The translations under genes and the position numbers were made by a program. Shown here piece by piece: positions 3,518 to 37,600 of a stretch of 64,000 nt of DNA. This stretch comes from a virus. The stretch is from IMG/VR virus record IMGVR_UViG_3300032116_000082, positions 1 through 64,000 of that record; one strand, 5' to 3'. Under the pieces are notes generated by a model. It saw only the letters and a list, made by a program, of their open reading frames with translations. It had not been told where the DNA came from and did not search any database. Each line of letters begins with the position of its first letter. Position 1 is the first letter of the stretch.

Positions 3518-4026
3518 AGGAATTTCTGGTGATTGCTGCGGTTGCCCTGACGACAACGTTCCTTCCGACGCAAGCGCGGACGGAGCCAATCGCCGAGTAT
3601 TTGATGCGACGCGGCGCCACGGAGCGGCGCGCGCACCAAGTCGCCAAACATATCCACGCCGAGGCCGCGCGGCATCGGATTGATCCCGCCCTGGTGGCGG
3701 CGATCGTCACCGTAGAAAACCCCCTGCTTCGACCCACGGCCCGTTCCCGCGCCGGAGCGCTGGGACTGATGCAGGTCATTCCAAAGTACACTAAGCCGTA
3801 TCAGCGGCGGTGTGGTCGTGCGCTGACAGACGATCGCACGAATCTGTGCATCGGGATCCAGATCTATCAGAAGAACCTGGAAGTCCGAAAGACCGTGGTC
3901 GGTGCCCTACTTGGCTACAACGGGTGCCGGTCACGCACGGCCAAATGTGGCCGATACGCCACGATTGTACTGCGCCACCGCGCAGCGGTGGCCCAACTCA
4001 TCACCGATACCGCAGGGACAGGATGA
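3514..4026 (+). CDS. secreted lytic transglycosylase (SLT domain)
   Basis: 170 residues starting in the ATGA that ends the helicase gene. Residues 1-21 form a signal peptide (basic KE, hydrophobic FLVIAAVALTTTFLP, then TQA). The mature part is an SLT lysozyme-like fold: the catalytic glutamate lies in VTVENP (E68), the GALGLMQVIP motif is at 81-90, and the conserved LLGYNG pattern is near residue 132. It cleaves glycan strands of peptidoglycan in the periplasm. It sits in the early, + strand block, far from the endolysin and lysis genes on the other strand. A role other than final lysis, such as local wall remodelling or superinfection effects, is therefore possible; that is inference. Confidence 0.88.
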   Translation: MKEFLVIAAVALTTTFLPTQARTEPIAEYLMRRGATERRAHQVAKHIHAEAARHRIDPALVAAIVTVENPLLRPTARSRAGALGLMQVIPKYTKPYQRRCGRALTDDRTNLCIGIQIYQKNLEVRKTVVGALLGYNGCRSRTAKCGRYATIVLRHRAAVAQLITDTAGTG

Positions 4027-6973: not shown

Positions 6974-7693
6974 ATGCTCGGTACACTGTATCCCAAGTCG
7001 GTTATCGTTGCACCCGAAAGCCCGCTCTCCAGCGGGCTTCGTGTTATCAAGGAGGCCAGCAGCAACAAGAAGCTCGGCAAGCTTGGCAAGCGGATCCAGA
7101 AGGGGCGCTTCAAGGACATGCCGATGTATGCGGTGACCTTGGAGGAGCGGGCGACCTGCTCCCCCACCTGCCCGAACCTGGACATCTGCTACGGCGACAA
7201 TATGCCGTTTGCCACCCGCCATACACCGGGTCCGGAGTTGGAGGATGCCCTGCGGGCCGATGTCCAGCACTTGTCTAAAAAACACCCGAAGGGCTTCGTG
7301 GTTCGGCTCCACGTCCTGGGTGATTTCTATTCCGTGGAATACGTCCAGTTCTGGTTCCGGCTGCTGTTGACGTACGAGCCGCTGCGACTGTTTGGCTACA
7401 CCCACTGGCAGTACGACCACCCGATCGGTAAGGCCGTGACCAAACTGGTCAAGCACTTTGGCGACCGCGTCGCGTTCCGACGCTCAGACAAGACCATCGC
7501 GGACGACCCGCTCCCGAGCGCCATGACGATCGGTCAGAACGAGCCGCCCGTCCCTGGCACGGTGATTTGCCCAGAGCAGACCGGTCGAACAGCGGCCTGT
7601 ACCACCTGCGGGTTGTGTTTGGATACGATGGTGTCCGTCAGCTTTATCGACCACTCCCGAAGGGGCTTGCGGACACTACCGTTAGCTGCCTAA
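6974..7693 (+). CDS. conserved phage protein with cysteine motifs
   Basis: 239 residues, ATG immediately after a GGGGGAT stretch and the preceding stop. Key features are EERATCSPTCPNLDICYGDNMPF (cysteines about 59, 63 and 69), HVLGDFYS at about 112-119, FGYTHW, and a second cysteine set near the C-terminus (ICPEQTGRTAACTTCGLC). I recognise this arrangement from proteins of unknown function common in phages and plasmids, sometimes labelled Gp88-like; it is not a radical SAM CxxxCxxC motif. Eight or so cysteines in two groups suggest a metal or Fe-S site. Function unknown. Confidence 0.7.
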   Translation: MLGTLYPKSVIVAPESPLSSGLRVIKEASSNKKLGKLGKRIQKGRFKDMPMYAVTLEERATCSPTCPNLDICYGDNMPFATRHTPGPELEDALRADVQHLSKKHPKGFVVRLHVLGDFYSVEYVQFWFRLLLTYEPLRLFGYTHWQYDHPIGKAVTKLVKHFGDRVAFRRSDKTIADDPLPSAMTIGQNEPPVPGTVICPEQTGRTAACTTCGLCLDTMVSVSFIDHSRRGLRTLPLAA

Positions 7694-7724
7694 CTTTCAC
7701 CATCTGTCCATTTCACGGAGCTAT

Positions 7725-8105
7725 ATGCCCAAAGATCAGCCTGATCGTCGTCACATCCGTTTGGTTTCCAACGAAGAGCTCCGCGAGCTGATTCAGTCGC
7801 GAACGAGCAACGGGTTTGTCAACATGCTCCATCCCCTAGAGCTGGACATCCCGCGCGAGGTGTTGGACCAGTGGACCAGAACGTCGCTTCAGGCGCTACG
7901 GGATGAGTTGCCACGCGCTGCGGACTCCGCCCGTGCGGAGATCGAGCGCGGCATTCAGCAGCGCGTGGACTTCCTGGCGTGGCTGCAAACCCAGGAGCAG
8001 GACCAGGTGTTCATGGCAATCTACCCGGCCGACCTGGACGGGCTGGACGACCTGGACGACCTGGACGAAGTCATCGAGAATCTACCACCCGATCTGCCGT
8101 TCTAA
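7725..8105 (+). CDS. acidic hypothetical protein with SSB-like C-terminal tip
   Basis: 126 residues with GGAG 5 bases before the ATG. The C-terminal quarter is made of an acidic repeat (DLDGLDDLDDLDEVIE) and ends in PPDLPF. The last residues resemble the acidic D-x-P-F tip by which SSB proteins recruit partners. The rest is helical. It lies just upstream of the tyrosine recombinase. The acidic tail could recruit a DNA-processing enzyme or mimic DNA; neither can be shown from sequence. Confidence 0.6.
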   Translation: MPKDQPDRRHIRLVSNEELRELIQSRTSNGFVNMLHPLELDIPREVLDQWTRTSLQALRDELPRAADSARAEIERGIQQRVDFLAWLQTQEQDQVFMAIYPADLDGLDDLDDLDEVIENLPPDLPF

Positions 8106-8121
8106 ACCGCCGGAGACAGCG

Positions 8122-9093
8122 ATGGTGTGCCAAGAGGCACTTTCTGCCTGGGAGCGGCTGCTCCTGGAGCGTGGGAGCACCAGTACTCGCACGCGGGAGA
8201 ACTATCGTCAGCAACTTAAACGGATCAGCACCCAGGTCGACCTCACGGCCCCACCAGAACAGGTCGCTCACGCCCTGCACACCTATCGTCAGCAGCTGCA
8301 GCAGCGATTTGAGTCTGGCAAGATCAGCCGGAGCTACATTCGCCTCCAAGTGGCGGCCTTGCGGTCCTTCTATGGCACCTTGGTCTCCGCCAAGCTCTAC
8401 CCGTCCGATCCGACGACCGGGCTTCGCTCGATCGCAAGTGACGAAGGGGCGCCGCGGAACCTGGCGTCCCAAGATGTGGATCGTCTGTTTGCCGCCTTGG
8501 ACATCACGGCACCGAACGGGCTGCGGGACCTGTGCATGGTGTGGCTCTACTACCATTCCCTGCGCAACAGCGAGGTTGCCAATCTCAGCACTGACGAGGT
8601 GACCTATTCAGCACGGGAAGAGGCGGTCGTGCTGACCTTTAAGGCCAAAGGTGGCAAGGTCCGCACGGTCGTGCTGGTCCCGGAGGCAGGACGCCTGCTG
8701 GCGCAGCACCTGTTACAGCAGTACGCCCCGGCCGACTGGTCGTACGCCGACCCGGATCAGCTGTTTCCGTCGTTCGATTTGCTGCTGAGTCGCGTGCTCA
8801 AGGGCAAGGTGTTGCCCGTGTTTCTTCACAACGGTCGGCAGATGACCCGACGCGTGTCGAACCAGCTGTTTGCCAAGTATCGGGAGAAGGCCGGACTTGG
8901 TCATGTGGTGCCGCACATGCTGCGACATACCTGCGCGACGAACCTGCTCAACGCCGACGTCGACCTGCGCACCGTGCAAGAGATCTTGGGTCACGCCTCT
9001 ATTCGGCAGACCGAGCGGTACACCGCGGTCTTGACGAGCCGCAAACAGCAAGCGATGAATCGACTCCCTCGTCCGGCGGTGGTTCATGGTTGA
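8122..9093 (+). CDS. tyrosine site-specific recombinase
   Basis: 323 residues from the ATG at 8122, 16 bases after the preceding stop. The N-terminal SAM-like core-binding domain (about 1-100) contains TRENYRQQL and SYIRLQVAALRSFYG. The catalytic domain has the complete residue set: R148 (HSLRNSEV), a lysine in the KAKGGK beta-hairpin, H265 and R268 (HMLRHTCATN), H291 (LGHASI) and the nucleophile Y300 (TERYTAV). It resembles XerC/D and phage integrases in length and motifs. It overlaps the RuvB-like gene by 8 bases. No excisionase or att site is visible nearby, so integration, dimer resolution or DNA circularisation are all possible. Confidence 0.93.
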   Translation: MVCQEALSAWERLLLERGSTSTRTRENYRQQLKRISTQVDLTAPPEQVAHALHTYRQQLQQRFESGKISRSYIRLQVAALRSFYGTLVSAKLYPSDPTTGLRSIASDEGAPRNLASQDVDRLFAALDITAPNGLRDLCMVWLYYHSLRNSEVANLSTDEVTYSAREEAVVLTFKAKGGKVRTVVLVPEAGRLLAQHLLQQYAPADWSYADPDQLFPSFDLLLSRVLKGKVLPVFLHNGRQMTRRVSNQLFAKYREKAGLGHVVPHMLRHTCATNLLNADVDLRTVQEILGHASIRQTERYTAVLTSRKQQAMNRLPRPAVVHG

Positions 9094-10333
9094 TCCCGGT
9101 CTTATCGCCTTTGGCGGTCTGGTCATGTTTTGGGTGACCAGTCTGATGCGTCCGCATAGTCAACGCGGTCCGTGGCGGCAGAAGTTCTCGACGGAGAGTA
9201 CTGCCTACAACTACAGCTTACAGTTTCGTCCAGAGATGCGGCTGACGGCAGCGGCTATCGAGGAGCTGGCGGAGCTGGATCGCCAGGTCGAGGCGCTGCT
9301 CAACGCGCCCACGGCGCTGGCAACCGCCGAGGATATCGGCGTGGTGGCCTTCAAGCCGGACGAGCCGACGTCGTTGGCCGACTTCGACGGGCAGCGGCAT
9401 ATCGTGCGTCCGGTGCAGCTGGCCATACAGGCACTCGAGCCGTCAAAGCGGGTGCTCAACCACAAGCTGTTGACCGGGATGCCAGGTCTCGGCAAGACCC
9501 TGCTGGCCAAGGTCATCGCCAACGATCTGCGTGTGCGTTCAGAGTCCCTGGGCCTGTCTGCCTTGCCGTTCATCGAGACCTACGCGGCGAACCTGAACTC
9601 GATCGCCGCGCTCGATGAGCAGGCCAAGCGCCTGGTCGATCGGGGCGGGATTTGGTTCATTGACGAGATTCACGTCCTCAACAAGGAGCTCGCCACTAAG
9701 CTGTACCTGCTGATGGAAGACGGTCGCTATCCGTTCGACGGCAGTAGCACGCCGACCGAGATGCCGAACGTCATGATTATCGGTGCCACCACCGACTACG
9801 GCGCGCTGCACAGCGCCCTTAAGCGCCGCTTTGGCGAGCCGTTGATGGTGCGTGCCCTGACCCGCGACGAGCTGCGGGCCATGGCAGAAAAGCTCGGCCG
9901 AATCACGGCGGAAGCAACCGACTTTCTGGTCAGCCGGTGCTGGCAGTCTGGTGCGCCATTCGAGCTCAAGATCCTGTTCCGCGAATGTCGAATCTTTGCT
10001 ACGGCTCAAGGCAAGGACGAGATCACTCGCGAGGTGGTGCAGGACGTGTTCGACACGTACGAGATCGACCAACACGGGCTTCGCCCTGCGGACCGCGGCG
10101 TGATCGCGGCGCTCTTCCAGCGCCCGCGGTACCGTGGCAAGGACCAGGCGTTCTACTGCTACGGCGGCTCTGAGTCCGACGTGTGTGCCGTCGCCAAGCT
10201 GGACAAGGCCGAGTTTCAGGAAACCATTCGGCCCAAGCTGATGAGTCGCGGGTTTCTGGAGGTTCGATCCGGAGTCGGCTTGGCGCTAACGGACAAAGCG
10301 GTCAACGAATACGAGGCGCTCAAAGTATGCTGA
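9086..10333 (+). CDS. RuvB-like AAA+ ATPase with hydrophobic N-terminus
   Basis: 415 residues, start inside the end of the recombinase gene. The AAA+ core has Walker A GMPGLGKT (131-138), Walker B IWFIDEIHVLN (189-199), sensor-1 IIGATTDYG (231-239) and a candidate arginine finger at LKRRFG (R247/R248). A winged-helix-like C-terminal domain follows, as in RuvB. RuvB drives Holliday-junction branch migration with RuvA; no RuvA or RuvC is seen here. Unlike RuvB, it begins with a hydrophobic segment (residues 5-21, GLIAFGGLVMFWVTSLM) that could anchor it in the membrane. A later start at M51 would remove this, but only the first start gives the 8-base overlap typical of this operon. Confidence 0.85.
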   Translation: MVDPGLIAFGGLVMFWVTSLMRPHSQRGPWRQKFSTESTAYNYSLQFRPEMRLTAAAIEELAELDRQVEALLNAPTALATAEDIGVVAFKPDEPTSLADFDGQRHIVRPVQLAIQALEPSKRVLNHKLLTGMPGLGKTLLAKVIANDLRVRSESLGLSALPFIETYAANLNSIAALDEQAKRLVDRGGIWFIDEIHVLNKELATKLYLLMEDGRYPFDGSSTPTEMPNVMIIGATTDYGALHSALKRRFGEPLMVRALTRDELRAMAEKLGRITAEATDFLVSRCWQSGAPFELKILFRECRIFATAQGKDEITREVVQDVFDTYEIDQHGLRPADRGVIAALFQRPRYRGKDQAFYCYGGSESDVCAVAKLDKAEFQETIRPKLMSRGFLEVRSGVGLALTDKAVNEYEALKVC

Positions 10334-11169
10334 TGGTGGCGTACCGCGCGGAGGCACGGGTGATCGCAAACCTGCAAAAGGCCATTGTGGCGACGGAGGC
10401 GACACACGAAGTGGCGGTATTGCTGCGTCAACCGCGGGACCTGCTCGGCCTCCGTCACGATGCCGAGCTGGCCACCGTGGTCGTCCTTGATCTCCGTACG
10501 CTCGACATCCATACCGCGGTCACGGTATCAACGGACACGCTCCATACCAATGCGTTCGCCAAAGTCGTTGTCGTTGCGGCGTTGCAGCCTAAGCTGCAGG
10601 AGCAGTGCCGCCTGTACGAACTAGGCCGGGCCGGAGTCGCCTCGTTGCCGTCTCCGGACCAGGCCGAGCAGGCGTGGTGGTGGACGCAGTTCATTGAAAG
10701 TCACATCACGTTTGATATCGTGGCCGCGGCTCACCAAGACTTGGCTGCTCTGATGCCGTCTGGTGAGCGTGGCGAATTCCTGCTGCGTGTCGCCCAGCTG
10801 GCTCACCTGCCTAGTATAAAGAGCCTCTCCGACCGTCTCTACCCTGGAGACAGTTACAGCATGTCGTACAAACGACGCCGGTTGTGGGAGGAGTGCCGCC
10901 GGTTGCACTTGGGCACCCCGGAAGCAGTGCTGGCCGCAACCCGCCTGATGTTGATCAAGTTCATTCTGGATGCGGATCAGTGGACGCTCAACCGGGTGGC
11001 TCGGTACTTTGGTGTCGATACGTCCCGGAATTTCAACCGTAGCTGCAAGACGAGGTATAGTCTGTCGGTCAAAGACATTCGACGAATGCCTCGAGACTCC
11101 ATAGTTGCCAAGGCCACGGAGATGTTCGTGTCGAACGCTCCATGGTCGGTCCTGCTGCAAGAACCATAG
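10327..11169 (+). CDS. receiver-like / AraC-type HTH regulator
   Basis: 280 residues from the ATG at 10327, overlapping the RuvB-like gene by 7 bases. Residues about 28-115 have the strand/helix rhythm of a response-regulator receiver: VVVLDLRT places D55 at the phosphorylation position and KVVVVAAL matches beta-4. The conserved Thr/Ser and Lys are missing (ALQ, SLPSP). Residues about 205-262 match an AraC-type HTH (WTLNRVARYFGVDTSRNFNRSCKTRYSLSVKDIRRM). This suggests a DNA-binding regulator with an atypical, perhaps unphosphorylated, input domain. It ends the recombinase operon. Confidence is good for the HTH and moderate for the receiver. Confidence 0.65.
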   Translation: MLMVAYRAEARVIANLQKAIVATEATHEVAVLLRQPRDLLGLRHDAELATVVVLDLRTLDIHTAVTVSTDTLHTNAFAKVVVVAALQPKLQEQCRLYELGRAGVASLPSPDQAEQAWWWTQFIESHITFDIVAAAHQDLAALMPSGERGEFLLRVAQLAHLPSIKSLSDRLYPGDSYSMSYKRRRLWEECRRLHLGTPEAVLAATRLMLIKFILDADQWTLNRVARYFGVDTSRNFNRSCKTRYSLSVKDIRRMPRDSIVAKATEMFVSNAPWSVLLQEP

Positions 11170-11198
11170 GCGCCGTCGAAAGACGGCGCTTTCGTTTA
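11170..11198 (+). terminator. rho-independent terminator
   Basis: 8-bp stem GCGCCGTC (11170-11177) / GACGGCGC (11182-11189) with a GAAA tetraloop, followed by TTTCGTTT. It starts directly at the stop codon of the regulator gene. Confidence 0.9.
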
Positions 11199-11199
11199 T

Positions 11200-11405
11200 G
11201 GGGATTCCGTGCCCCTTGTTTTGCGCGGCGGGAGCCGGGAGTGTGAGGCTAAAGAAAACCCACCAAAACGGCAGATTAAGACACCATAACGTAAGGATGC
11301 GGCCGATAGTGTTTCGTTAGGAAACGGGTCAGTGATTCGTATCACAAAGCTGTCCTTCCAGGTAACGAACTCGGCCTTTTACAGTACCGACCTCAGCTGG
11401 ATCTT
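11200..11405 (+). promoter_or_regulatory. non-coding region, probable promoter region
   Basis: About 200 bases without a convincing gene on either strand, between a terminator and the possible sigma factor gene. It must hold the promoter for the downstream genes, but I see no clear -35/-10 pair. A weak candidate is TTTACA (11380-11385) and TCTTAT (11402-11407), spaced 16 bases apart. It includes an A-rich stretch (AAAGAAAACCCACCAAAAC). No long direct repeats seen. Confidence 0.35.
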
Positions 11406-11439
11406 ATGCGCAACCACAAACTGCTGAGGGGTTGCGCAT
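11406..11439 (+). promoter_or_regulatory. hairpin covering the start codon of the possible sigma factor gene
   Basis: Perfect 10-bp inverted repeat ATGCGCAACC (11406-11415) / GGTTGCGCAT (11430-11439) with a 14-base loop. The right arm contains the first two bases of the ATG at 11438, and the loop holds the GAGGGG ribosome binding sequence (11427-11432, partly in the stem). In RNA this would hide the start codon. As DNA it could also be an operator. No U-tract follows, so it is not a terminator. Confidence 0.6.
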
Positions 11440-12172
11440 GAACGGTACAGAACAGTCGCTAGCGGATAGGTGCCGGTCTGTAGGTGAAGTGGTTTGTCAC
11501 CTGGGCGGCTTCGTACGCCGCCAGCTCAACAAGAAGCTCGAAGAGCCGATCTCAGATACCGATTGGCAACAGCATGGTCGAGTCGCGGTCTTCTTGGCCT
11601 TTCTGAACCTAGACGGCAATCCGGATCGACCAGACGGATTCGATTGGTATGCCAAGTCCTTCGTGGCCAAGGCCCTTTCCATTCTGCAGCAAATCACCAT
11701 TGGCAGCGAAAGCGACGTCTACGATCGAATCGTTCGGTGTCGCCAACGGCGATCGGCCAGGAACGTAGATGAGCTGCGCTGGGATTGTTGGGCCTCCGCC
11801 TCGCTCGATGACATTGCGGGCCATCGCGCGGTTGAGGATTTCAGTCTTGACCTAATGGCCCCTACATCGTTGGAGCAGATGTATGAGTTTGAACGGGCGG
11901 CGGCACGTCCGCAGGTCGATGACGCACTGGTCCAGGAGCTCACAAAGAACCTCAAGCCGCAAGAGGCGGTGTGGTTGATCCGTCGCTATCGCGACGGCGT
12001 GCCGACGGCGATTCTGGCGGAAGAACTCTGCCGCAAGAACGTCAAGTATCAGACACCGGATGGACAGGTCCGCGCTATCCGGTGCATTGATGTCGCGGTT
12101 CATCGTGCGCGAGCCAAGGCGCGCAAGTTTCTCAACAGCCGTTGGCAACAGTTGGCCGCAGAAGTGTCGTGA
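11438..12172 (+). CDS. possible RNA polymerase sigma factor
   Basis: 244 residues from the ATG at 11438 (a TTG two codons earlier is the alternative). Residues about 168-232 look like sigma region 4: LTKNLKPQEAVWLIRRYRDG, AILAEELC, an insert, then IDVAVHRARAKARKFL, the recognition-helix and RAR-K-L ending of sigma-70-like proteins. The N-terminal half (YAKSFVAKALSIL and the acidic middle) could be a divergent region 2, but it is weakly conserved. If it is a sigma factor it would direct host polymerase to phage promoters. Its start codon lies in a hairpin, and a 200-base non-coding region precedes it. It could also be another HTH regulator. Confidence 0.5.
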   Translation: MNGTEQSLADRCRSVGEVVCHLGGFVRRQLNKKLEEPISDTDWQQHGRVAVFLAFLNLDGNPDRPDGFDWYAKSFVAKALSILQQITIGSESDVYDRIVRCRQRRSARNVDELRWDCWASASLDDIAGHRAVEDFSLDLMAPTSLEQMYEFERAAARPQVDDALVQELTKNLKPQEAVWLIRRYRDGVPTAILAEELCRKNVKYQTPDGQVRAIRCIDVAVHRARAKARKFLNSRWQQLAAEVS

Positions 12173-12210
12173 ATATCCAGTTGAGACTCAAGGCACTTGC
12201 CTCAGCCCCC

Positions 12211-12390
12211 ATGCCAAACCTCGTAGAAGTTGTAGAACTCGATCCGGCGTACAAATTCAGCCCCCTGGTAGATATCATCGACGCGGCGATTGCCAAACGG
12301 CGGTTACTCAAACTTCGCACTCTTGAGGGCGACGCCCTCGTCATTCGTACGGACGTCCTTCATAGCCTCGCCATCCGAGAAACCCACTAA
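12211..12390 (+). CDS. hypothetical protein
   Basis: 59 residues from the ATG at 12211, or 73 residues from the GTG at 12169, which overlaps the preceding TGA (GTGA) and is an equally plausible start by the habits of this genome. Small alpha/beta protein. The TAA overlaps the ATG of the nuclease gene. Not recognised. Confidence 0.5.
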   Translation: MPNLVEVVELDPAYKFSPLVDIIDAAIAKRRLLKLRTLEGDALVIRTDVLHSLAIRETH

Positions 12391-13391
12391 TGCCCATCAT
12401 CGGTTACGTATGCCCACCTGGCGGAGAAGCCCCTGGTCGGCAGAACCACGTCGAGTATTGCCTGAAGGACTGTCAACAGCAGTGTGTGACCCCGCCGCTT
12501 CTTGCGGCCATGTGGAAGGCAGACACCGGCAACTATCACCAAGGCGACTACATTTCCGCGTCCATGCTGGCCGGGTCGGGCTGCGGTCGCCAGGTGATGT
12601 TGGAGCGGTATCAGGACTTCTACGACCTGCCGACCAAGCGGTATTGGCCGTTCCGCGGTACGCACGCCCACGCGATTATCGAAGGCGCGGGGGATATCAT
12701 TGCCAAGTATGGATGGCTGCAGGAAATCCGTATGGCGACGAAGCTCGAGTACGAGCTCCCGCAGCCGGTCTTCGATGAGCACGGGAACTGGACGGGCGAC
12801 TACGATTCGTCCAAAAACCTGGAAATCGTCGTGCGTGGGACCACCGATGCGTACAATCCGTACTCGCGGACCTTGACGGACATGAAGAGCATGGCCGACA
12901 AGAAGGTCGAGATGATGATCAAGGGGTCAACGCCGGGGACGTACTCAAAGCATTTGCAGGATTCGTGGGTCGCCCAGCTGAACATCTACCGCTACTTGAT
13001 CTCGAAGACGGAGATTCCGGATTGGGTTCACACCGCCTTCAAGGAGCATGGGCTTCCGAAGCTCAAGGGAAAGCTGTTCCCTGCCCCGACTAAGCTCTTT
13101 ATCCAGGGCATCGCCATGATGAGCCATCCGGTATCCGGCTCAAAGTTGGCACACAAGGAACGCGGCAAGGTCACGCTGTACGACATCGACCACGTGCCGG
13201 TGTGGTCGATCGAAGAAACCGAAGACTTTATTCGTCCGCGTGCCCTGGAGTGGTATCGGGCGCTCAACCTCAAGATCACCCCGCCGGTTGTGTCGAAAGA
13301 CAAAGAATGGCTGTGTCGGAATTGTGCCTTCCACGAAAAGGTGTGTTTTCCGGCACAAGAACGCGACTCGCAGGAGCAGTCGAGTGACTGA
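12390..13391 (+). CDS. Cas4/RecB-like PD-(D/E)XK nuclease with Fe-S cysteines
   Basis: 333 residues, start sharing a base with the previous TAA. The nuclease core shows ISASMLAGSGCGRQVMLERY (C65), GTHAHAIIE, the catalytic set D153 (RGTTDAY), D164-x-K166 (LTDMKS), and the RecB-type glutamine motif SWVAQLNIYRYL (Q196). The C-terminal C309-x2-C312-x6-C319 with C65 gives the four cysteines that hold a 4Fe-4S cluster in Cas4 and AddB. An extra N-terminal group (C8, C24, C28, C32) is not typical and may bind zinc. Such enzymes resect DNA ends. The SSB gene lies two genes downstream, so recombination or end processing during replication is likely. Confidence 0.88.
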   Translation: MPIIGYVCPPGGEAPGRQNHVEYCLKDCQQQCVTPPLLAAMWKADTGNYHQGDYISASMLAGSGCGRQVMLERYQDFYDLPTKRYWPFRGTHAHAIIEGAGDIIAKYGWLQEIRMATKLEYELPQPVFDEHGNWTGDYDSSKNLEIVVRGTTDAYNPYSRTLTDMKSMADKKVEMMIKGSTPGTYSKHLQDSWVAQLNIYRYLISKTEIPDWVHTAFKEHGLPKLKGKLFPAPTKLFIQGIAMMSHPVSGSKLAHKERGKVTLYDIDHVPVWSIEETEDFIRPRALEWYRALNLKITPPVVSKDKEWLCRNCAFHEKVCFPAQERDSQEQSSD

Positions 13392-13668
13392 GTCCTTGCT
13401 GCCAGAAAACCTGCCGTGGTATGGGTACTGCCCAGTGCAGATTGAAGGAGAAATAGACGGTTACCACTATTACTTTCGTGCCCGTGGAACGCGGTGGACG
13501 TTTCAGATCGCAGACGTCCCTCACAAAGACCCCATCGACGCCCCAAACTTCATGGAAGGACGCATCGATGCGGAGTTTGCGGCCGGGTGGATGCCCCATC
13601 CGCTCGCTAGAGCGCTTGTCGACTGGGCCCTTGCCGTCTATCAAGCGGAACGTAGTCGCTCCCAGTAA
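13384..13668 (+). CDS. hypothetical protein
   Basis: 94 residues from a GTG overlapping the nuclease stop by 8 bases. Aromatic-rich N-terminal half (LPWYGYCPV, DGYHYYFRARGTRWTFQI) suggests a small beta-sheet domain; a C-terminal helix follows. It sits between the nuclease and SSB genes, so it may take part in DNA processing. Not recognised. Confidence 0.55.
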   Translation: MTESLLPENLPWYGYCPVQIEGEIDGYHYYFRARGTRWTFQIADVPHKDPIDAPNFMEGRIDAEFAAGWMPHPLARALVDWALAVYQAERSRSQ

Positions 13669-13728
13669 GAATTCCCCTGGGTCAGTCAACCAGTACGCAG
13701 CACTTCTTATCATCTCAACGAGGAACGC

Positions 13729-14253
13729 ATGGCCAAGTCACTCCGCTTCAAAGTCCACAACTGTAAGGCAGTCTCGCGCAACTCCCTGATGGTGTTTGAT
13801 CTCGCGGTTGGGTACGAGGAGAACGGGCAGTTCATTGGCGTCATGGATGTCCGTGGCTGCTGGCTCAAGCAGAAGAGCGACGGCTCGGGAAACTACGTGT
13901 CGTTCCCGTCGAAGCTGCGGGTTACTAAGGAAGGCGAGGCGGCAGTCGATGACAACGGCTACAAGATCTACGACAACATCGTCGACATGTATCTCGAGAA
14001 GGGCGCCAATCCGGAGAAGCCGGACACGCGGGCGCCGACGCAGGCGGCGTGGGGGTTTCGGAAGTGGCTGATTCAGGAGGCCACCACGGCATATCAGCAG
14101 CTCTCTTCGTCTGAGAGCGGTCGCGGCGCGGCCAAGCCTGCGTCAGCGCCCAGCCGAGCGGCGGCTAAGCCTGCGCCGAAGCCTGCGGCGGCACCGACTG
14201 CGGTGGCGGACGATTACGCGGATGACGACGACGATTCGGCGTTCCCGTTCTAA
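13729..14253 (+). CDS. ssb: single-stranded DNA-binding protein
   Basis: 174 residues with GAGGAA before the ATG. Residues about 1-115 look like an OB fold rich in aromatic and basic residues (VMDVRGCWLKQKSDGSGNYVSFPSKLR). An alanine/proline-rich linker follows (about 128-158), and the protein ends in an acidic tip (DDDDDSAFPF) of the kind SSB proteins use to recruit helicases and nucleases. It would coat single-stranded DNA during replication and recombination. The fold assignment rests mainly on layout and tip. Confidence 0.8.
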   Translation: MAKSLRFKVHNCKAVSRNSLMVFDLAVGYEENGQFIGVMDVRGCWLKQKSDGSGNYVSFPSKLRVTKEGEAAVDDNGYKIYDNIVDMYLEKGANPEKPDTRAPTQAAWGFRKWLIQEATTAYQQLSSSESGRGAAKPASAPSRAAAKPAPKPAAAPTAVADDYADDDDDSAFPF

Positions 14254-14256
14254 TCG

Positions 14257-14604
14257 GTGTCTGCGCCGCCAGAACTGAGCTATGCCGCAGTAGCGGCAAC
14301 CCTTGAATTGTCACGTCTGCGCAGCCTCATGATGGTCGGGGCTGCGCTCGTGACCAAGTTTCCCGCGGAAGAAGATTGGTGGGCGCTCGTGGCCGACCCT
14401 GACTATGTGGAATCGTTGAACGCGTTGGCGGAAGTCATTAATGACATTCGTCATGATGCCAAGATCAACGAGGCACTAGATCCTGAGGCCGTCGCTAGTG
14501 CCGCCGACAATCATCACGGACGCGCGGTCGAAGCGGTTCAGGTAGTCGCAGAACGTCTTGAAGTGCCCCCAGAGGACCTGCTCAACGTGCTGATTACTGG
14601 TTGA
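14257..14604 (+). CDS. hypothetical protein
   Basis: 115 residues from a GTG 3 bases after the SSB stop. Entirely helical in appearance, acidic, with no membrane span or cysteines. Not recognised. Its position between ssb and the ribonucleotide reductase gene gives no firm hint. Confidence 0.55.
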   Translation: MSAPPELSYAAVAATLELSRLRSLMMVGAALVTKFPAEEDWWALVADPDYVESLNALAEVINDIRHDAKINEALDPEAVASAADNHHGRAVEAVQVVAERLEVPPEDLLNVLITG

Positions 14605-14641
14605 GCCAGTCGTACAACCCACCCCCAATCCGCAAACCAGG

Positions 14642-14673
14642 CCCGTTGGCGACCTACTTGTCCCAACGGGAGG
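14642..14673 (+). promoter_or_regulatory. hairpin next to the ribosome binding site of the ribonucleotide reductase gene
   Basis: 8-bp inverted repeat CCCGTTGG (14642-14649) / CCAACGGG (14663-14670) with a 13-base loop. The right arm runs into the Shine-Dalgarno sequence GGGAGG (14668-14673) before the ATG at 14680. This could limit ribosome access, or be a weak attenuator. The leader is far too short for a classical cobalamin riboswitch. Confidence 0.5.
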
Positions 14674-14679
14674 ATATTC

Positions 14680-16653
14680 ATGAAGAATAAGGAAGTCGTG
14701 TTTACGCTAAACGACGCGTTTGTCGCGTCCTACGGTGAAAAGACCCCGCCATTTGGCTTTAACGGCCTTGGTGAACTGGTGTATCTGCGCACCTACAGCC
14801 GGATCAAGGAGGACGGCACCCAGGAGCAGTGGCACGAGACCGTTCGTCGGGTGGTTGAAGGTTGCTATACCATGCAGAAACGATGGATTACAGACCACAA
14901 CCTGGGCTGGTCCGACCGCAAGGCGCAGCGGAGCGCCCAGGAGATGTACGACCGGATCTGGAACATGAAGTTCCTGCCGCCGGGTCGTGGGCTGTGGGCC
15001 ATGGGGTCGTCCCTGACGATGGAAAAGGACCTCTATGCCGCCCTCAACAACTGCGCCTTCGTTAGCACCGAAAACCTGGAAAAGGACCTGTCAGAGCCGT
15101 TCACGTTCCTGATGGATGCCTCCATGCTCGGCATCGGCGTGGGCTTTGACACCAAGGGTGCGGGCAAGCTGACGATCACGGCCCCGCAAGCTGACGAGAA
15201 GACCATGGTGATCCCGGATACCCGCGAGGGTTGGGTGGATTCCATCAAGCTCCTCCTGGAATCCTACTTCCTGCCGGACTCGGCGACCGTGGTGTTCGAC
15301 TACAGCCAGATCCGCCCAGCTGGGCAGCCGATCAAGGGCTTTGGTGGCGTCTCGTCTGGTCCGGACCCGCTCGAGCAGCTGCACAAGGATATCCGTGCAG
15401 TGCTCGATCAAAGCGCGGGGAAGCCGATCTCGGTGACCAACATCGTCGACATCATGAACCTGATCGGCAAGTGCGTCGTGGCCGGGAATGTTCGTCGCAC
15501 CGCAGAGATCGCCTTCGGCGCACCCGATAGTCAGGAGTTCCTGGACCTCAAGAACTACGAGGTCAATCCGCATCGGGCCTCGTACGGGTGGACCAGCAAC
15601 AACTCGATCTATGCTGAGATCGGCATGGACTACACGGAAGCGGCCAAGCGTATCAAGTACAACGGAGAGCCGGGATTTGCCTGGCTGTCGAACATGCGGG
15701 AGTACAGTCGCATGGATGAGCTGCCTGATAACAAGGACTATCGGGTGGCCGGTGCCAACCCGTGCGTGGAGCAGTCCCTGGAGTCGTACGAGCTGTGCTG
15801 CCTAGTCGAGACGTTCCCGGCCAACCACGAAACCCTCGAAGACTACGGGCGTACGCTGAAGTTCGCCTACCTGTATGCCAAGACGGTCACGCTGGGCAAG
15901 ACGCCGTGGGCCAAGACCAATCGCGTGCTGCTTCGGAACCGGCGCATTGGGCTGTCGCAGTCGGGCATTCAGCAGGCGATCGCCAAGCTCGGCATCCAGC
16001 ACTACCGCGTGTGGTGCGACATGGGCTACGAAACGGTGCGCTACTACGACGACGTCTACTCGGAGTGGCTAGCTATCCCGAAGTCGGTCAAGACCACGTC
16101 CGTCAAGCCGTCCGGATCAGTATCGTTGCTCGCCGGAGCCACACCAGGAATGCACTGGCCGGAATCTAAGACGTATATCCGTCGGATGCGCCTGAGCAAG
16201 TACTCGGATCTGATCGCTCCGCTCCAGGCGGCAGGCTATAAGCTCGAGCCTGCGGTTGGTAGTGAAGATTCGACGATGGTCGTCGAGATCCCGGTCAAGA
16301 TTGAGGAGGATATTCGTACGGCGGCTGAGGTCTCGATGTGGGAACAGCTGGCGATGGCGGCGTTCCTGCAGCGGTATTGGAGCGACAACCAGGTGTCGGC
16401 GACGATCACGTTCAATCCGGAAACGGAAGGTGATCAGATCGCCAATGCGCTGAACTACTATCAGTACCAGCTCAAAGGCATCAGCTTCCTGCCGCGCGTC
16501 GACTATGGGGCGTATCCACAGATGCCGTACGAAGCCATCGATGAGGCGACGTACCAAGCACGCAAGGCCGAGCTCAAGCCGCTGCACTTTGGTGCTACGC
16601 ACGAGGCGGCCGAACAGGAGAAATTCTGTAGTAACGACAGCTGTACCATCTGA
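14680..16653 (+). CDS. nrdJ: adenosylcobalamin-dependent (class II) ribonucleotide reductase
   Basis: 657 residues with GGGAGG before the ATG. It has the monomeric class II layout: C125 (NNCAFVST), the active-site set C362-x-E364-x8-C373 (NPCVEQSLESYELC), and a C-terminal C650-x4-C655 pair (FCSNDSCTI). These match in order and spacing C119, C408-x-E410, C419 and C731/C736 of the Lactobacillus leichmannii ribonucleoside-triphosphate reductase. It would reduce ribonucleotides to deoxyribonucleotides using coenzyme B12, with the C-terminal pair reduced by thioredoxin. No NrdA/NrdB or activase is encoded nearby, consistent with class II. A hairpin overlaps its ribosome binding site. Confidence 0.95.
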   Translation: MKNKEVVFTLNDAFVASYGEKTPPFGFNGLGELVYLRTYSRIKEDGTQEQWHETVRRVVEGCYTMQKRWITDHNLGWSDRKAQRSAQEMYDRIWNMKFLPPGRGLWAMGSSLTMEKDLYAALNNCAFVSTENLEKDLSEPFTFLMDASMLGIGVGFDTKGAGKLTITAPQADEKTMVIPDTREGWVDSIKLLLESYFLPDSATVVFDYSQIRPAGQPIKGFGGVSSGPDPLEQLHKDIRAVLDQSAGKPISVTNIVDIMNLIGKCVVAGNVRRTAEIAFGAPDSQEFLDLKNYEVNPHRASYGWTSNNSIYAEIGMDYTEAAKRIKYNGEPGFAWLSNMREYSRMDELPDNKDYRVAGANPCVEQSLESYELCCLVETFPANHETLEDYGRTLKFAYLYAKTVTLGKTPWAKTNRVLLRNRRIGLSQSGIQQAIAKLGIQHYRVWCDMGYETVRYYDDVYSEWLAIPKSVKTTSVKPSGSVSLLAGATPGMHWPESKTYIRRMRLSKYSDLIAPLQAAGYKLEPAVGSEDSTMVVEIPVKIEEDIRTAAEVSMWEQLAMAAFLQRYWSDNQVSATITFNPETEGDQIANALNYYQYQLKGISFLPRVDYGAYPQMPYEAIDEATYQARKAELKPLHFGATHEAAEQEKFCSNDSCTI

Positions 16654-24394: not shown

Positions 24395-27300
24395 TTACGG
24401 AGTGTAGACAACCCAGATCGCTCCTTCCTCGGATGCTTCCGTGGTCGGTGCGTACGTCGCGACTCGTGTTCCAGCGAGCTTGTAATTCGTGTCGTAGGCG
24501 GTCTTGTTGGTCAACGTCTGCGATCCGGTCGTCGTGACGACCGTATTGTCGATGGCAACAGACACAGCCGTGCTTCCGTTGTAGCCGCTTCCACCCGTGA
24601 TCGACAGGCCGGTTCCAGCAGACAAGGTAGCGAGCGACACATTGAGCGTCTTGGCGGCACCGCCGTTGTATGTCCCGCCACCAGTGAACGATAGGCCCGT
24701 TCCGGCAGACAACGCATTGGCTACTTGTGAGGCGGTACCGGCGGTTGTAGCGCTGCCAGCGGTTGAAGCGCTGCCAGCACTTCCAGCGGATGTCGCGTAG
24801 CTGACGTTTTGACTTGCGATATTGCTGGACGTGATGACATTAACCAACTGGAGTTGCTGATTACTCATCTGCAAATTATCACCAAGCGTAATCGCGCCGG
24901 TTCTGCTACCAAAGGAAGTGACACCTCCTGTTGCGGTCGAGCTGATGGTAAACGTACCGGCCACATTGCTGAATGAGATGCCACTTCCGGCCGCGAGGGT
25001 GACGAGGCTATAGGCGGTCCCTGTGCCCAAGAGGATCTGGTTCGACGCGGGGGCTGACGTGAGGCCGGTACCGCCAGATCCAACGGCGAGGGTGCCGCTC
25101 AGGGTGAGTGTCCCGGTCGACGTGATGGGCGAGCCGGTAAAGGAAAGCCCCGTCGTACCGCCAGAGGCTCCAACAGACGTGACTCCGGTCGCCGGAGCCG
25201 CGGCGTTCACCCAATTCGTGCCGTTGAACTGCAGGATCTGTCCGTTGCTGGGCGACGACAACGATACCCCGCCGATCTGACTCAGACTATAGTCGCCACT
25301 CGTTGCCGACACAGCACCGGTCCGCCCAAAGACCGAGGTGACGGCATGAGACACGGTCACCGTGACACTTCCAGCGCCGGTCGTTTGGGCGGACACCGCA
25401 TTACCTGCAAAGTTGATCGTGCTCGCGGCACTCGTGATCTGGGTCCCCTCGTCGGAGACGGCGACCGAGCTACCGGACGTTGCCGCCGCGTTGGTCCACA
25501 CCCCATTGACACGCTTCAACACTTGCCCGTCGCTGGCACTGCTAATGACCACGTCCTCGAGTCCGTCGAGATACAGACCAGAAATGCCGCTCCCGGTCCC
25601 GCCCGTCAGGACAAAGTCTTGGGCGTAGATAATTCCACCAGCGGTAATGCTGCCCTTGACGAACATGTTGTTGCCGCTCGCGGTGTCCGCATAGGTATCA
25701 GACACCACAATGGCACCGACCTTAACCCCCAGGGCGGCATTTCCGGAGGTCAGGAATTGGGCGAACGTTCCGGCGGCATTGGCGATGTAGTCGCCGCCAC
25801 TGAACTTGAACGACGTGGCCGTGACTGCCCCGTTGACGCTCAGCGCACCACTGAGTGACCCGCCAGTGAGCGGCAGGTAATTGTTCAGCGATCCGGTTGA
25901 GGCTTTACCATCCAGAGCGGTCTGCAACCCAGTAATATCGCCGATCGCGTGCGTATGACTCGACGCTGCCTTACCGTCGAGTGCCCCCTGCAAGCCAGTG
26001 ATATCGCCAATCGCGTGCGTGTGACTCGAGGCTGCTTTACCATTCAGCGCAGCCTGCAACCCGCTAATATCACCGATCGCGTGCGTATGACTCGAGGCCG
26101 CCTTACCGTCGAGTGCCCCCTGTAAACCAGTAATATCGCCGATCGCGTGCGCGTGGCTCGGCATGTCGCCGGAGCTTAGAGCCGTGTTGACCCAGTTTGT
26201 CCCATTATGTCGCAGGAACTGTCCACTGCTGGGCGTGGTGAGCGCCACACCGCCCAGTTGACTAAGGCTGTAATCGCCACTCTGTGCCGTGATCGCGCCT
26301 GTCCGCCCAAAGACAGACGACACATTCCCGGTAACCGAGACCGTAACGCCACCATTGGCACTGGTCTGGGCCGATACTCCGCTTCCGGCGAACGTTAGCG
26401 ACGCCGCCGCCGCCGCGACTTGGGTCGTCTCGTCAAAAATGCTAATCGTGCCGCTCCCGGAGGAAGCTGCCGCGTTGACCCAGACACCGCCTACTCGCTT
26501 AAGGACTTGTCCTTCCTGGGCTCCGGTGATGACGACGTCTTCGAGGGCGTCCAGGCCCAAGCCGGAAATACCGCCGCCGGTTCCTCCAGTGAGCACGAAA
26601 TCTTGCGCATATACGATTCCGCTGACCGACACATCATTCGGGAACGAGTAGCTGCCCGTCCCCGTCGTCGCATCGCGCGCCGGAACAGACACCGTATTCG
26701 TGACCGTCTGGCCGTCTTTGACACACTTGAACGTGACGTTCTTCGGGTTCCCGTACGGTGCGTTCCGGAAGACGTCGAGAGTGAACGGGCTGGTAGTGAT
26801 CGCGGAGGAGTCCGTTCCGCCGTCCGTGGCGTGTGTCAGTGTCCCATCAAAGGTGGCAACCAGCGTATACTTGTCGGTATAGATGGTTTCTTTGACCGCC
26901 AAAGAAGGACCAAAGCTGGTCTTTTCCTTGGGCTGTACGTCGATGGAATCGATGTCCTGAATTCGCCCGGCGGCTGTCGCCGTGAAAACGACACGACCCG
27001 GACCCGAGCCGAAGTCCGGACGGTTGATCGTATATTCCCTGAAGCTGTTGGCCGTCTCTGGTGTCGTGAACTCGCCGATGCCGGTCGTCACGCTTTGCGG
27101 CGTCGCTGGCGTTAACGTTCCCACACCAAACTTGGCGGCGGTAATCGTCGCAGCCAGATTGGAGTACGGATCGTTAACCGCGACAATTACCTTGATGTAA
27201 TCGGCGTGGGTTTCCGTCTGTCGAATGCGAGCATTCAGGTATACGGTGTCGCGCCCAACGGCCGGAATCGTGGTAAAGTCGTCGTCCGACTGTCCGCCGA

Positions 27301-34698: not shown

Positions 34699-37600
34699 TC
34701 AGCTCCCTCGCCGCTCAGGCAGCAACACCAGATGACACGTCAACTCCGTAGTTTGTGGAAGGACGGGACCAACCCCCACGGGCATGTGCCCAGTCGTGAA
34801 GGGCCCACCGACGTCCCACGAGATCCCCGAATAGTTTCCGTTCCGCAAAAACCCGCCGGTAATTTTCGGCGTGCTGACATTGAGGTCGTCATCCTTCCAA
34901 CCCGTCCACGCGCCGTAGTCGTAATACAGGTTATTCGAAAAGCCAATGAAGCGGTGTCTCCACCACATCACCCCGTCCAGGCGCTCTTTGCCAAACCGAT
35001 TCGTCGGGAACATGGAGCCCGATTCCCACACGTACTCACTGCGGAACGACGTCCGGAACCAGTCGATACCGGCGCCGGTTGGCGGAGACGTTGTGGTCGA
35101 CGGACCCGTACGATCCACCAGCACCTGAAACAGCGGATAGCTCGAGACATTCAGCGTTTGGCTGACCTGAATGCCCTTATAGCGATGGGGATTCACGTAA
35201 TACGGTGACCCTGCCGCGACCTTGGTCGGCGCCGCCGCCGGGTACGGACCACGACTGTAGATGCCCCGCAGATCTTCCCAATGCACCGTCTCGTCCTGCC
35301 GGACGTAGTTGATGGCATTGGTCGGAACGCCGTCCTTGAACATGCCTTTAGTTACATCGACACGAAATCCAGGGTTGAACTTCAGCGCGGTGCCGGATCC
35401 CGTCATATCAACCGTCGGACTCGACCACGTCTGCGCCGCCCCGGCGTCAGACGTCTTGCGCTCGATAGTGTTATCCGATCCGAAGGCACGGACCTTTACC
35501 TTGGTCTCCGAGCCGCCGATGGTCCAGTACATGTTGATACCGCGAAGATCGGCCTCCTCGCCGTTATTCGTGAAGCTGGCGAACGTCGACTGCGCAAACG
35601 GCGGAGCGGGCGGCGAGACCATTGGGGGCAGTAAGAAATATGGATGCAGATCCCGTGTGATGGACGGAATCCACAACGGACTGCTTTCCCACTCCCACGT
35701 TCCTACGTCCATGCCGCCAGACGCGTTCGCGCCCAGAAACGAACTCGACACGGCGCCTGCGACGGAACCAAGCTGACGCATAACATTCGACGCGCTGTAC
35801 TCGAGCGGCAGGCGGTATCCGTCAACGGATGCCGCCGCGTGATTGGCCGAGTAGGTGTCCTGTGGGAACGTGCCGAAGGCGGACCACGAGACTGGCGTAG
35901 TGCCCACGTTTGTCGCCGACACGTCATGCTGATACCAGAACGACTGCAGTAGCTTGGCAAACAGCGTATTGGCCGAATAACCGAACGCTGTGAGCTGGTT
36001 TGCCTTCCAGTCGGCCTCCTCGGTCCACTGACGGCAAACGACCGTGCGGCGCTGCTCGTACATCGGATCGGTCGGCCAGTTCAGCGCCTGGGTATTGGTG
36101 TAGATCTTAGACTTGTCAACGAAACTGCGATTAATCCCCCAGCTGGAGCGCCCCGAGCGATCGGTGACGTACGCCGACAGGTAAAACAGGTAGGACATCA
36201 AGGCGAACTGCAGGCGGGAACGAGCGGTCGCGGTCGCGCGCGCGCCGTTCCACTGAGGCACTTCTTCCAGCTGCAGGTAGTCCCCGAACTCGATCGACTG
36301 TTCGTACCCGGAGATCAAGAAATCCTTCTTAAAATCCCGCGGATAGAACACCCATTCGGTGCTTGCGTCACCAGGATCCGTCGCGTCGTCCCAGCGGAAC
36401 GTCGAGGCTTTCCGGTAGCCGGAATCCGTATACTGCTTGGTGTGCTCGTCATTGGTCAGGCGACGGCTATACACCGCTCGATCTTCCACCGTCGTCCCTG
36501 GAAACTCCTTGCCCGCATACACCACCACCTGATCCCCGATAATAGCCCGAAGATGGACCTCTCTCGTGAGTTTGACGGAGATCTGGGAATCCTTACCTGC
36601 CCACAGAACACCTGGGCGCGGTGCCACTTTGAACCGAATACGGATCGGCTTGTCGTTGTTAATGTACGCCGTCAACGAGGACGGCTGGCTGGTAGGCGGT
36701 AGCGCGCCCCACGAGGCTCCGATCTTGTCTTCGACTTTCAGCTCGAGCTTCGTGGGTTCTGGTAAATGCGTCAAAATCGCAACGTTGACGTCGTCGTCCT
36801 TACTGCTCAGTTCCCTTTCGGCAGGCGTCGTCGTCTCGGCTTCAATGTGGACATACCAACGGGCGTACGTTCCGTGGCCAATAATCGGGACACCGTCCAC
36901 ATTTCGCGCCAACCAGATGTACGCCAACGGACCGAGGTCGCCGCCGCCAACTTCTTGGTTCCAGACATAGAACCCCCGCCCAACGCGCGGCTTCTGATCG
37001 TCCTCGAACGTACCCTCAACCAACTCGGAATACAGCTCGGACTGGACCGCATTCCACAGGCCCAGCTGGTCCACGCCGTCCCAGGTGAACACCTTGTCGG
37101 CCATCACGGGCAGGTATTCCCAATGCTGCTCCGGCTGATTCGCGTCCGAGGCCGGGTTGGTTAGCCAGCCCACGACCGTGTGATCCTCCCAGTTCCGGAT
37201 CGATACCCGATACATCCCCTCCGCTAGGACGGAGAATCGGATATTGACCAGGTTGCCGAGCTCGCTCGTATACGGGTCATAGAACGGGCTCTTGGAAACA
37301 CCACCAGCAATCCCATTCGGGTCGCCGCCTCCAACAGGGAACAAGGACCGATACCGCACATCAAAGGTCAACACTTCGTCGGTCGATACGCCGGTTGTGG
37401 TCCCTTGAGCCCACGGGAGGGAGACGCCAACACTGGTGTAGTTCAGCCCATAAAACTCGTGGTACGGGTTATTCGAAAGCCACCCGGTGTTCATGCGGTC
37501 CGTACCCACCCGGTACGACAAGAAGATCTTGCCTTCCGTGGCCAAAGCCGCACCGCCAGTCAAGGCTTTCTGACCGCGGAACAGCGAAATGACCCCGTCG

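Follow-up and report, generated by a model that had tools for sequence, protein, structure and literature searches.

An Xer-like recombinase, an altered RuvB-like ATPase and a regulator encoded by overlapping phage genes: a candidate DNA-processing unit

Why would a phage encode, in one run of overlapping genes, a tyrosine recombinase, a motor of the branch-migration type and a DNA-binding regulator? The question arises from the 94,271-base IMG/VR virus contig IMGVR_UViG_3300032116_000082 (G000), of which bases 1-64000 form the window analysed here. An earlier note made from the letters of this window had described the three genes as an overlapping cassette, and had suggested a recombination module that senses a signal or a control switch. 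Since the contig encodes portal-like, terminase-like and large tail-type proteins together with replication proteins (a family A DNA polymerase and a primase-helicase, with a ribonucleotide reductase and a SNF2-type helicase among the further products), it most likely represents a tailed phage. No tRNA genes were found in the 64,000-base window. Internal repeats occur within a large protein gene at 25902-26160 of the window, diverged direct repeats lie at 86.9-92.0 kb of the contig, near its end, and a TOTE-type archaeo-eukaryotic primase domain is fused to a DnaB-like helicase at contig positions 72878-74911. The locus in question comprises the following features, in window coordinates.

6974-7693, plus strand: GP88-like gene 5' of the trio, belonging to the same co-directional block (PF17338, E=4e-6; phrog_2554, E=9e-24)
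7725-8105, plus strand: gene for a small acidic protein, ending 16 bp 5' of the recombinase gene
8122-9093, plus strand: gene for an Xer-like tyrosine recombinase, 323 aa (ATG 8122, TGA 9093)
9086-10333, plus strand: gene for a RuvB-like AAA+ ATPase, 415 aa (ATG 9086, TGA 10333)
10327-11169, plus strand: gene for a DNA-binding regulator, 280 aa (ATG 10327, TAG 11169)
11168-11191, plus strand: intrinsic terminator-like hairpin with a 10-bp stem, a 4-nt loop and a T-rich tail, closing the unit

The coordinates given in the earlier note are exact, with an overlap of 8 bp between the recombinase and ATPase genes and of 7 bp between the ATPase and regulator genes, and base composition is of the coding type in all three. 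The single terminator that it described corresponds to the hairpin at 11168-11191 (-22.3 kcal/mol, z = -4.7), and a hairpin followed by a T-run is also found directly 3' of the regulator gene in both related phages described below. The proposal that the genes are made together is borne out in that one transcription unit comprising recombinase, ATPase and regulator is supported. About 5 of the 16 same-strand gene junctions in our own gene list overlap, and overlap by itself is therefore ordinary in this stretch. Furthermore, the trio closes a longer run of co-directional genes that extends several kb upstream, so that the overlaps and the gene order of the proposed cassette hold, whereas it is not free-standing. 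The small acidic protein encoded immediately upstream belongs to no clear family in the Pfam/PHROG comparison. The genes after the trio include one for ribonucleotide reductase and, judged by motif, genes whose products resemble SSB and nucleases, as would suit a region devoted to DNA metabolism. The protein encoded at 12390-13391 is highly conserved (72-76% in relatives); its motifs, among them a cysteine cluster at the C-terminus, suggest a nuclease of the RecB/Cas4 type, with no clear Pfam or PHROG match.

Is this gene order a property of a single contig? A search for the same three neighbours, as the earlier note had advised, found the order conserved, so that the outcome named there as refuting the idea did not arise: a related phage, IMGVR_UViG_3300048586_000548 (G001), carries the full trio in the same order with overlaps of 14 and 4 bp, and its proteins are 54% (recombinase), 64% (ATPase) and 30% (regulator) identical to those of G000. 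The GP88-like and small acidic protein genes are kept there as well (58% and 48%, respectively). Two further records, G002 and G004, come from a sister sample and represent the G001 phage again; the three contigs overlap and jointly put its genome size at about 124 kb or more, implying that the 94-kb G000 contig is probably incomplete. In a third phage, IMGVR_UViG_3300043427_003610 (G003), whose terminase-like protein is 89% identical to that of G000, the contig end falls inside the trio unit, and the regulator (38% identical), the terminator and the next gene follow one another as in G000. The full trio is thereby known from only two independent phages. Given that codon third positions are the most diverged in all three genes, each appears to be kept as a protein under selection.

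Scans of viral contigs, for which the trio proteins, sub-alignments and the terminase served as queries, and further scans of genome contigs returned this phage group only; they require short near-exact peptides, by which more distant relatives could be missed. Similarly, tblastn against phages and plasmids gave only distant RuvB and Xer-like proteins, the regulator had no match among phage records, and the terminase-like protein of G000 had 0 matches among 50,697 phage records. No described Xer-RuvB phage module was found in the open-access papers searched; the parts are of known kinds, whereas their combination and the altered RuvB are undescribed in the literature searched. A reading of the trio as a defence system was rejected, as only trivial P-loop matches were obtained.

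Synteny among the relatives spans about ten genes (6974-16653), well past the trio. Synteny alone therefore does not prove a three-gene unit, and a dedicated recombination module, as envisaged in the earlier note, is plausible and no firmer than that because of this extension. The same extent of synteny speaks for independent DNA-metabolism genes that are co-transcribed only for timing, with the motor and a RuvC-like nuclease serving homologous recombination, the recombinase working separately and the regulator controlling neighbouring genes. So do the frequent overlapping junctions in this stretch and the evolutionary rate of the regulator, which matches that of the next gene (11438-12172) and far exceeds those of the recombinase and the ATPase. 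We regard this explanation as a real possibility, albeit a somewhat doubtful one.

What kind of recombinase is encoded? The protein matches PF00589 (E=1e-31) and, along its whole length, XerC (TIGR02224, E=2e-44), XerD (E=5e-42) and archaeal XerA. Because it scores below the equivalog cut-offs (152 against 335 bits for XerC, 144 against 330 for XerD and 114 against 220 for XerA), it is classified by sequence as Xer-like and not as an orthologue of any of the three. Alignment with XerD (1a0p) identified the complete R-K-H-R-H-Y active site at R148, K176, H265, R268, H291 and Y300, in agreement with the full catalytic set claimed before, and all six residues are invariant in G001. With 323 aa, the enzyme is of the simple two-domain type without an extra arm-binding domain.

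Such an enzyme could make the trio a lysogeny module, in which it carries out integration and excision of the phage, for instance at a dif-like site of the host, the regulator is a repressor or an activator, and the ATPase is an accessory factor. Phages that use Xer chemistry to integrate at dif exist, providing a precedent, and tblastn found no trace of a second integrase in G000 (best E 0.18), which has no other tyrosine recombinase. By contrast, both relatives carry a second one.

37013-38194 of G001, minus strand: second tyrosine recombinase, ordinary phage-integrase type (phrog_1)
70030-71175 of G003, plus strand: second tyrosine recombinase, ordinary phage-integrase type (phrog_1)

These second integrases are 382-394 aa long, encoded on the other strand and 44% alike. 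Given that G001 and G003, two of the three phages, possess a separate integrase, integration there does not require the cassette enzyme, which is probably not the lysogeny integrase but serves another role; lysogenic integration as its sole role is disfavoured on the same ground. In addition, searches for an attachment site or a dif-like site yielded none: matches to dif in this incomplete contig were no better than in shuffled sequence, and the site may differ from known dif. No convincing conserved repeat with Xer geometry was detected, and narrow pattern scans of 84,980 genomes revealed no prophage relative. A lysogeny module is accordingly judged improbable. Instead, the likeness to XerC and XerD over the full length, the lack of an arm-binding domain and the separate integrase of the relatives argue for a role of the recombinase on phage DNA.

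The ATPase consists of a hydrophobic N-terminal segment (about residues 2-20), a linker, an AAA+ motor (94-326) and a RuvB_C-like winged-helix part (327-410). This architecture rests on sequence, since the AlphaFold model (mean pLDDT 41) was too poor to use. The assignment as a RuvB-type motor was supported by NF000868 (E=8e-35 over residues 94-408) and by RuvB in the PDB (1in4, E=7e-24 over 83-407), with scores below the RuvB equivalog cut-offs (120 against 282 bits for NF000868 and 113 against 299 for TIGR00635). We aligned it with five bacterial-type RuvB proteins (Mext and Tsuk, translated in a wrong frame, were left out), to which it is 27-32% identical. The Walker A (GxPGLGKT), Walker B (FIDEIH), MED, sensor 1 (GATT) and arginine finger (RFG) motifs are all kept. 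By contrast, the protein departs from RuvB at positions of importance in the RuvAB structure paper (PMC9477746). Two ATP-contacting arginines of RuvB are lost: the sensor-2 arginine (Arg218 as numbered in that paper) is replaced by Phe/Tyr, with GTPRIA becoming GAPFEL or GAPYEL, and the equivalent of Arg21 is Glu. Branch migration by this protein is therefore not assured. The presensor-1 beta-hairpin is 6 residues shorter than in the five RuvB proteins; in RuvB this hairpin binds RuvA domain III (PMC9477746), so that the shortened element is presumed to be the RuvA-binding hairpin. One of three wing arginines is kept, the head domain contains about 14 extra residues, and an N-terminal extra stretch of about 70 residues accompanies the hydrophobic segment. 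The hydrophobic N-terminus reported earlier is real, being borderline in G000 and clear in G001 (best 19-residue Kyte-Doolittle means of 1.53 and 2.13, respectively), and the G001 start is supported by a good Shine-Dalgarno sequence, GGAGG.

The loss of the sensor-2 and Arg21 equivalents would also suit an AAA+ protein that resembles a clamp loader or remodels substrates in general and does not migrate junctions, and the best PHROG matches are indeed labelled clamp loader (phrog_5846, E=6e-13). These matches are, however, limited to the AAA+ core, whereas RuvB models extend over almost the entire motor plus the winged-helix end at E=8e-35, far better than any clamp-loader model, leaving this identity very unlikely.

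If the motor is RuvB-like, where are its partners? According to the earlier note, it lacks both RuvA and RuvC. For RuvC, the statement holds for the 64-kb window only, because a RuvC-like gene lies outside it and is also present in both relatives.

67218-67871 of the G000 contig, minus strand: RuvC-like nuclease gene, outside the window
82933-83613 of G001: RuvC-like gene
about 21.2-21.9 kb of G003: RuvC-like gene

The protein matches PF02075 along nearly the whole model with E=6.5e-4, which is below the gathering score; its D46, E101, D191 and D194 are invariant in two aligned phages, with the catalytic acids assigned by motif, and a PDB search with the protein alone gave no match. For RuvA, no gene was found in the five records by a search whose control was positive in 14/14 genomes; the contigs may be incomplete and host RuvA may serve. 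Given that no RuvA was found and that the presumed RuvA-binding hairpin is shortened, a classical RuvABC machine appears to be absent. A RuvC-like gene in all three phages is what independent homologous recombination genes would lead one to see. Against that explanation, this gene is about 57 kb from the trio and oppositely oriented, close to those for the polymerase and primase-helicase, whereas gene overlap couples motor and recombinase in both phages with the full trio; nor does the apparent absence of classical RuvABC favour it.

The regulator combines a degenerate receiver-like N-terminal part containing Asp55 with an AraC-type helix-turn-helix C-terminal part. The latter matches PF12833 with E=3e-4, below the curated gathering score, and is modelled with pLDDT values of 77-93 (the receiver part is of low confidence); the best folds for the model are the C-terminal domains of AraT, YesN and MarA, at E >= 0.05. 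Sequence evidence for the AraC-type assignment is weak but consistent, and together with the fold model it favours the DNA-binding regulator proposed before. The N-terminal half follows the order of a receiver domain, but of the usual signalling residues (acidic pair, phospho-acceptor Asp, Thr/Ser and Lys) only the phospho-acceptor-like Asp55 is invariant in the three-phage alignment. Because it is without the acidic pair and the lysine, phosphorylation-dependent sensing appears unlikely, which weakens the idea of a signal-sensing module, and this half would be better termed a pseudo-receiver. Downstream of the regulator gene, a perfect 10-bp inverted repeat, ATGCGCAACC/GGTTGCGCAT, occupies 11406-11439 (RNA fold z=-3.3), and its right arm spans the ATG at 11438, where the next gene probably begins; the repeat could be an operator or a translational control hairpin. 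In G003, a 15-bp exact direct repeat, ATGCCAACTTGGTGG, occurs in two copies (L029:3496-3510 and 3569-3583) between the regulator and the next gene, and these may be binding sites for a regulator.

Taken together, we tentatively favour, at a little under an even chance, a model in which the trio closes an operon for the processing of phage DNA, and recombinase and motor act on junctions or multimers of the phage genome. The trio would represent the promoter-distal end of a DNA-metabolism operon, and its XerC/D-like recombinase would exchange strands on the phage's own genome instead of inserting it into the host, for example by resolving multimers or crossovers that stem from replication and recombination. 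We infer that the RuvB-like ATPase is its likely partner motor, either acting on the same junctions or bringing DNA to it. The hydrophobic N-terminus may hold the ATPase near the membrane or in a complex, while the winged-helix end would engage DNA, allowing the motor to drive or complete junction processing without RuvA; leftover junctions could be cut by the phage's RuvC-like nuclease. The regulator is predicted to bind DNA via its AraC-type domain, most likely controlling its own operon or the next one. A stronger version, in which a membrane-tethered RuvB-like motor directly activates the Xer-like recombinase without RuvA and multimers of the phage are resolved under a phage regulator, is unlikely. 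Phages of this group encode, besides a RuvC-like protein, a RuvB-like motor whose gene overlaps that of an Xer-like recombinase.

How does this arrangement compare with known systems? Xer and ruv genes lie close together in MT836992.1, an 8-kb record filed as bacteriophage that looks like a piece of bacterial chromosome and carries yajC-like, xerD, ruvC, ruvA, ruvB, glmM-like and sigma factor genes. There too the Xer gene closely precedes ruvB in the same orientation; by contrast, ruvC and ruvA lie in between, the proteins look like housekeeping ones and the regulator is missing. Such a xerD-ruvC-ruvA-ruvB cluster indicates that Xer and Ruv genes can adjoin without a known mechanistic reason. 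Two other RuvB matches in the phage collection also adjoin ruvA, as in a chromosome. With bacterial RuvB itself, the phage ATPase shares the AAA+ core motifs followed by a RuvB_C-like winged-helix part, and it differs in the hydrophobic N-terminus, the shorter presensor-1 hairpin, the sensor-2 Phe/Tyr and the Glu in place of Arg21.

To our knowledge, Cre of phage P1 works without a motor and its gene has no RuvB-like neighbour linked to it, in which respects it differs from the cassette recombinase. Cre acting at loxP keeps the P1 plasmid monomeric (PMC2409434), and the likeness would lie in a simple phage tyrosine recombinase that is separate from integration and maintains a monomeric phage genome. 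With XerC/XerD and the single-recombinase systems XerA, XerH and XerS, the phage enzyme has in common the simple two-domain build and the full R-K-H-R-H-Y set. Unlike them, it is phage-borne, falls below every equivalog cut-off and comes with no dif-like site found, and its gene overlaps that of a RuvB-like motor instead of being served by an FtsK motor. Together with Cre, FtsK-XerCD is the nearest functional parallel: there, the recombinase is activated by a motor that is bound to the membrane and has a winged-helix end. FtsK-XerCD at dif and the phage pair each place an Xer recombinase beside an ATP-driven motor with a hydrophobic N-terminus and a winged-helix C-terminus, whereas the phage motor is a RuvB-like AAA+ protein, not of the FtsK/HerA type, and its contact with the recombinase is putative. 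The likeness is one of working by analogy and not of descent. If direct activation were true, a phage would have rebuilt the logic of FtsK-XerCD from different parts; and if recombinase and motor cooperate at all, they would represent a second way of linking site-specific recombination with a DNA motor.
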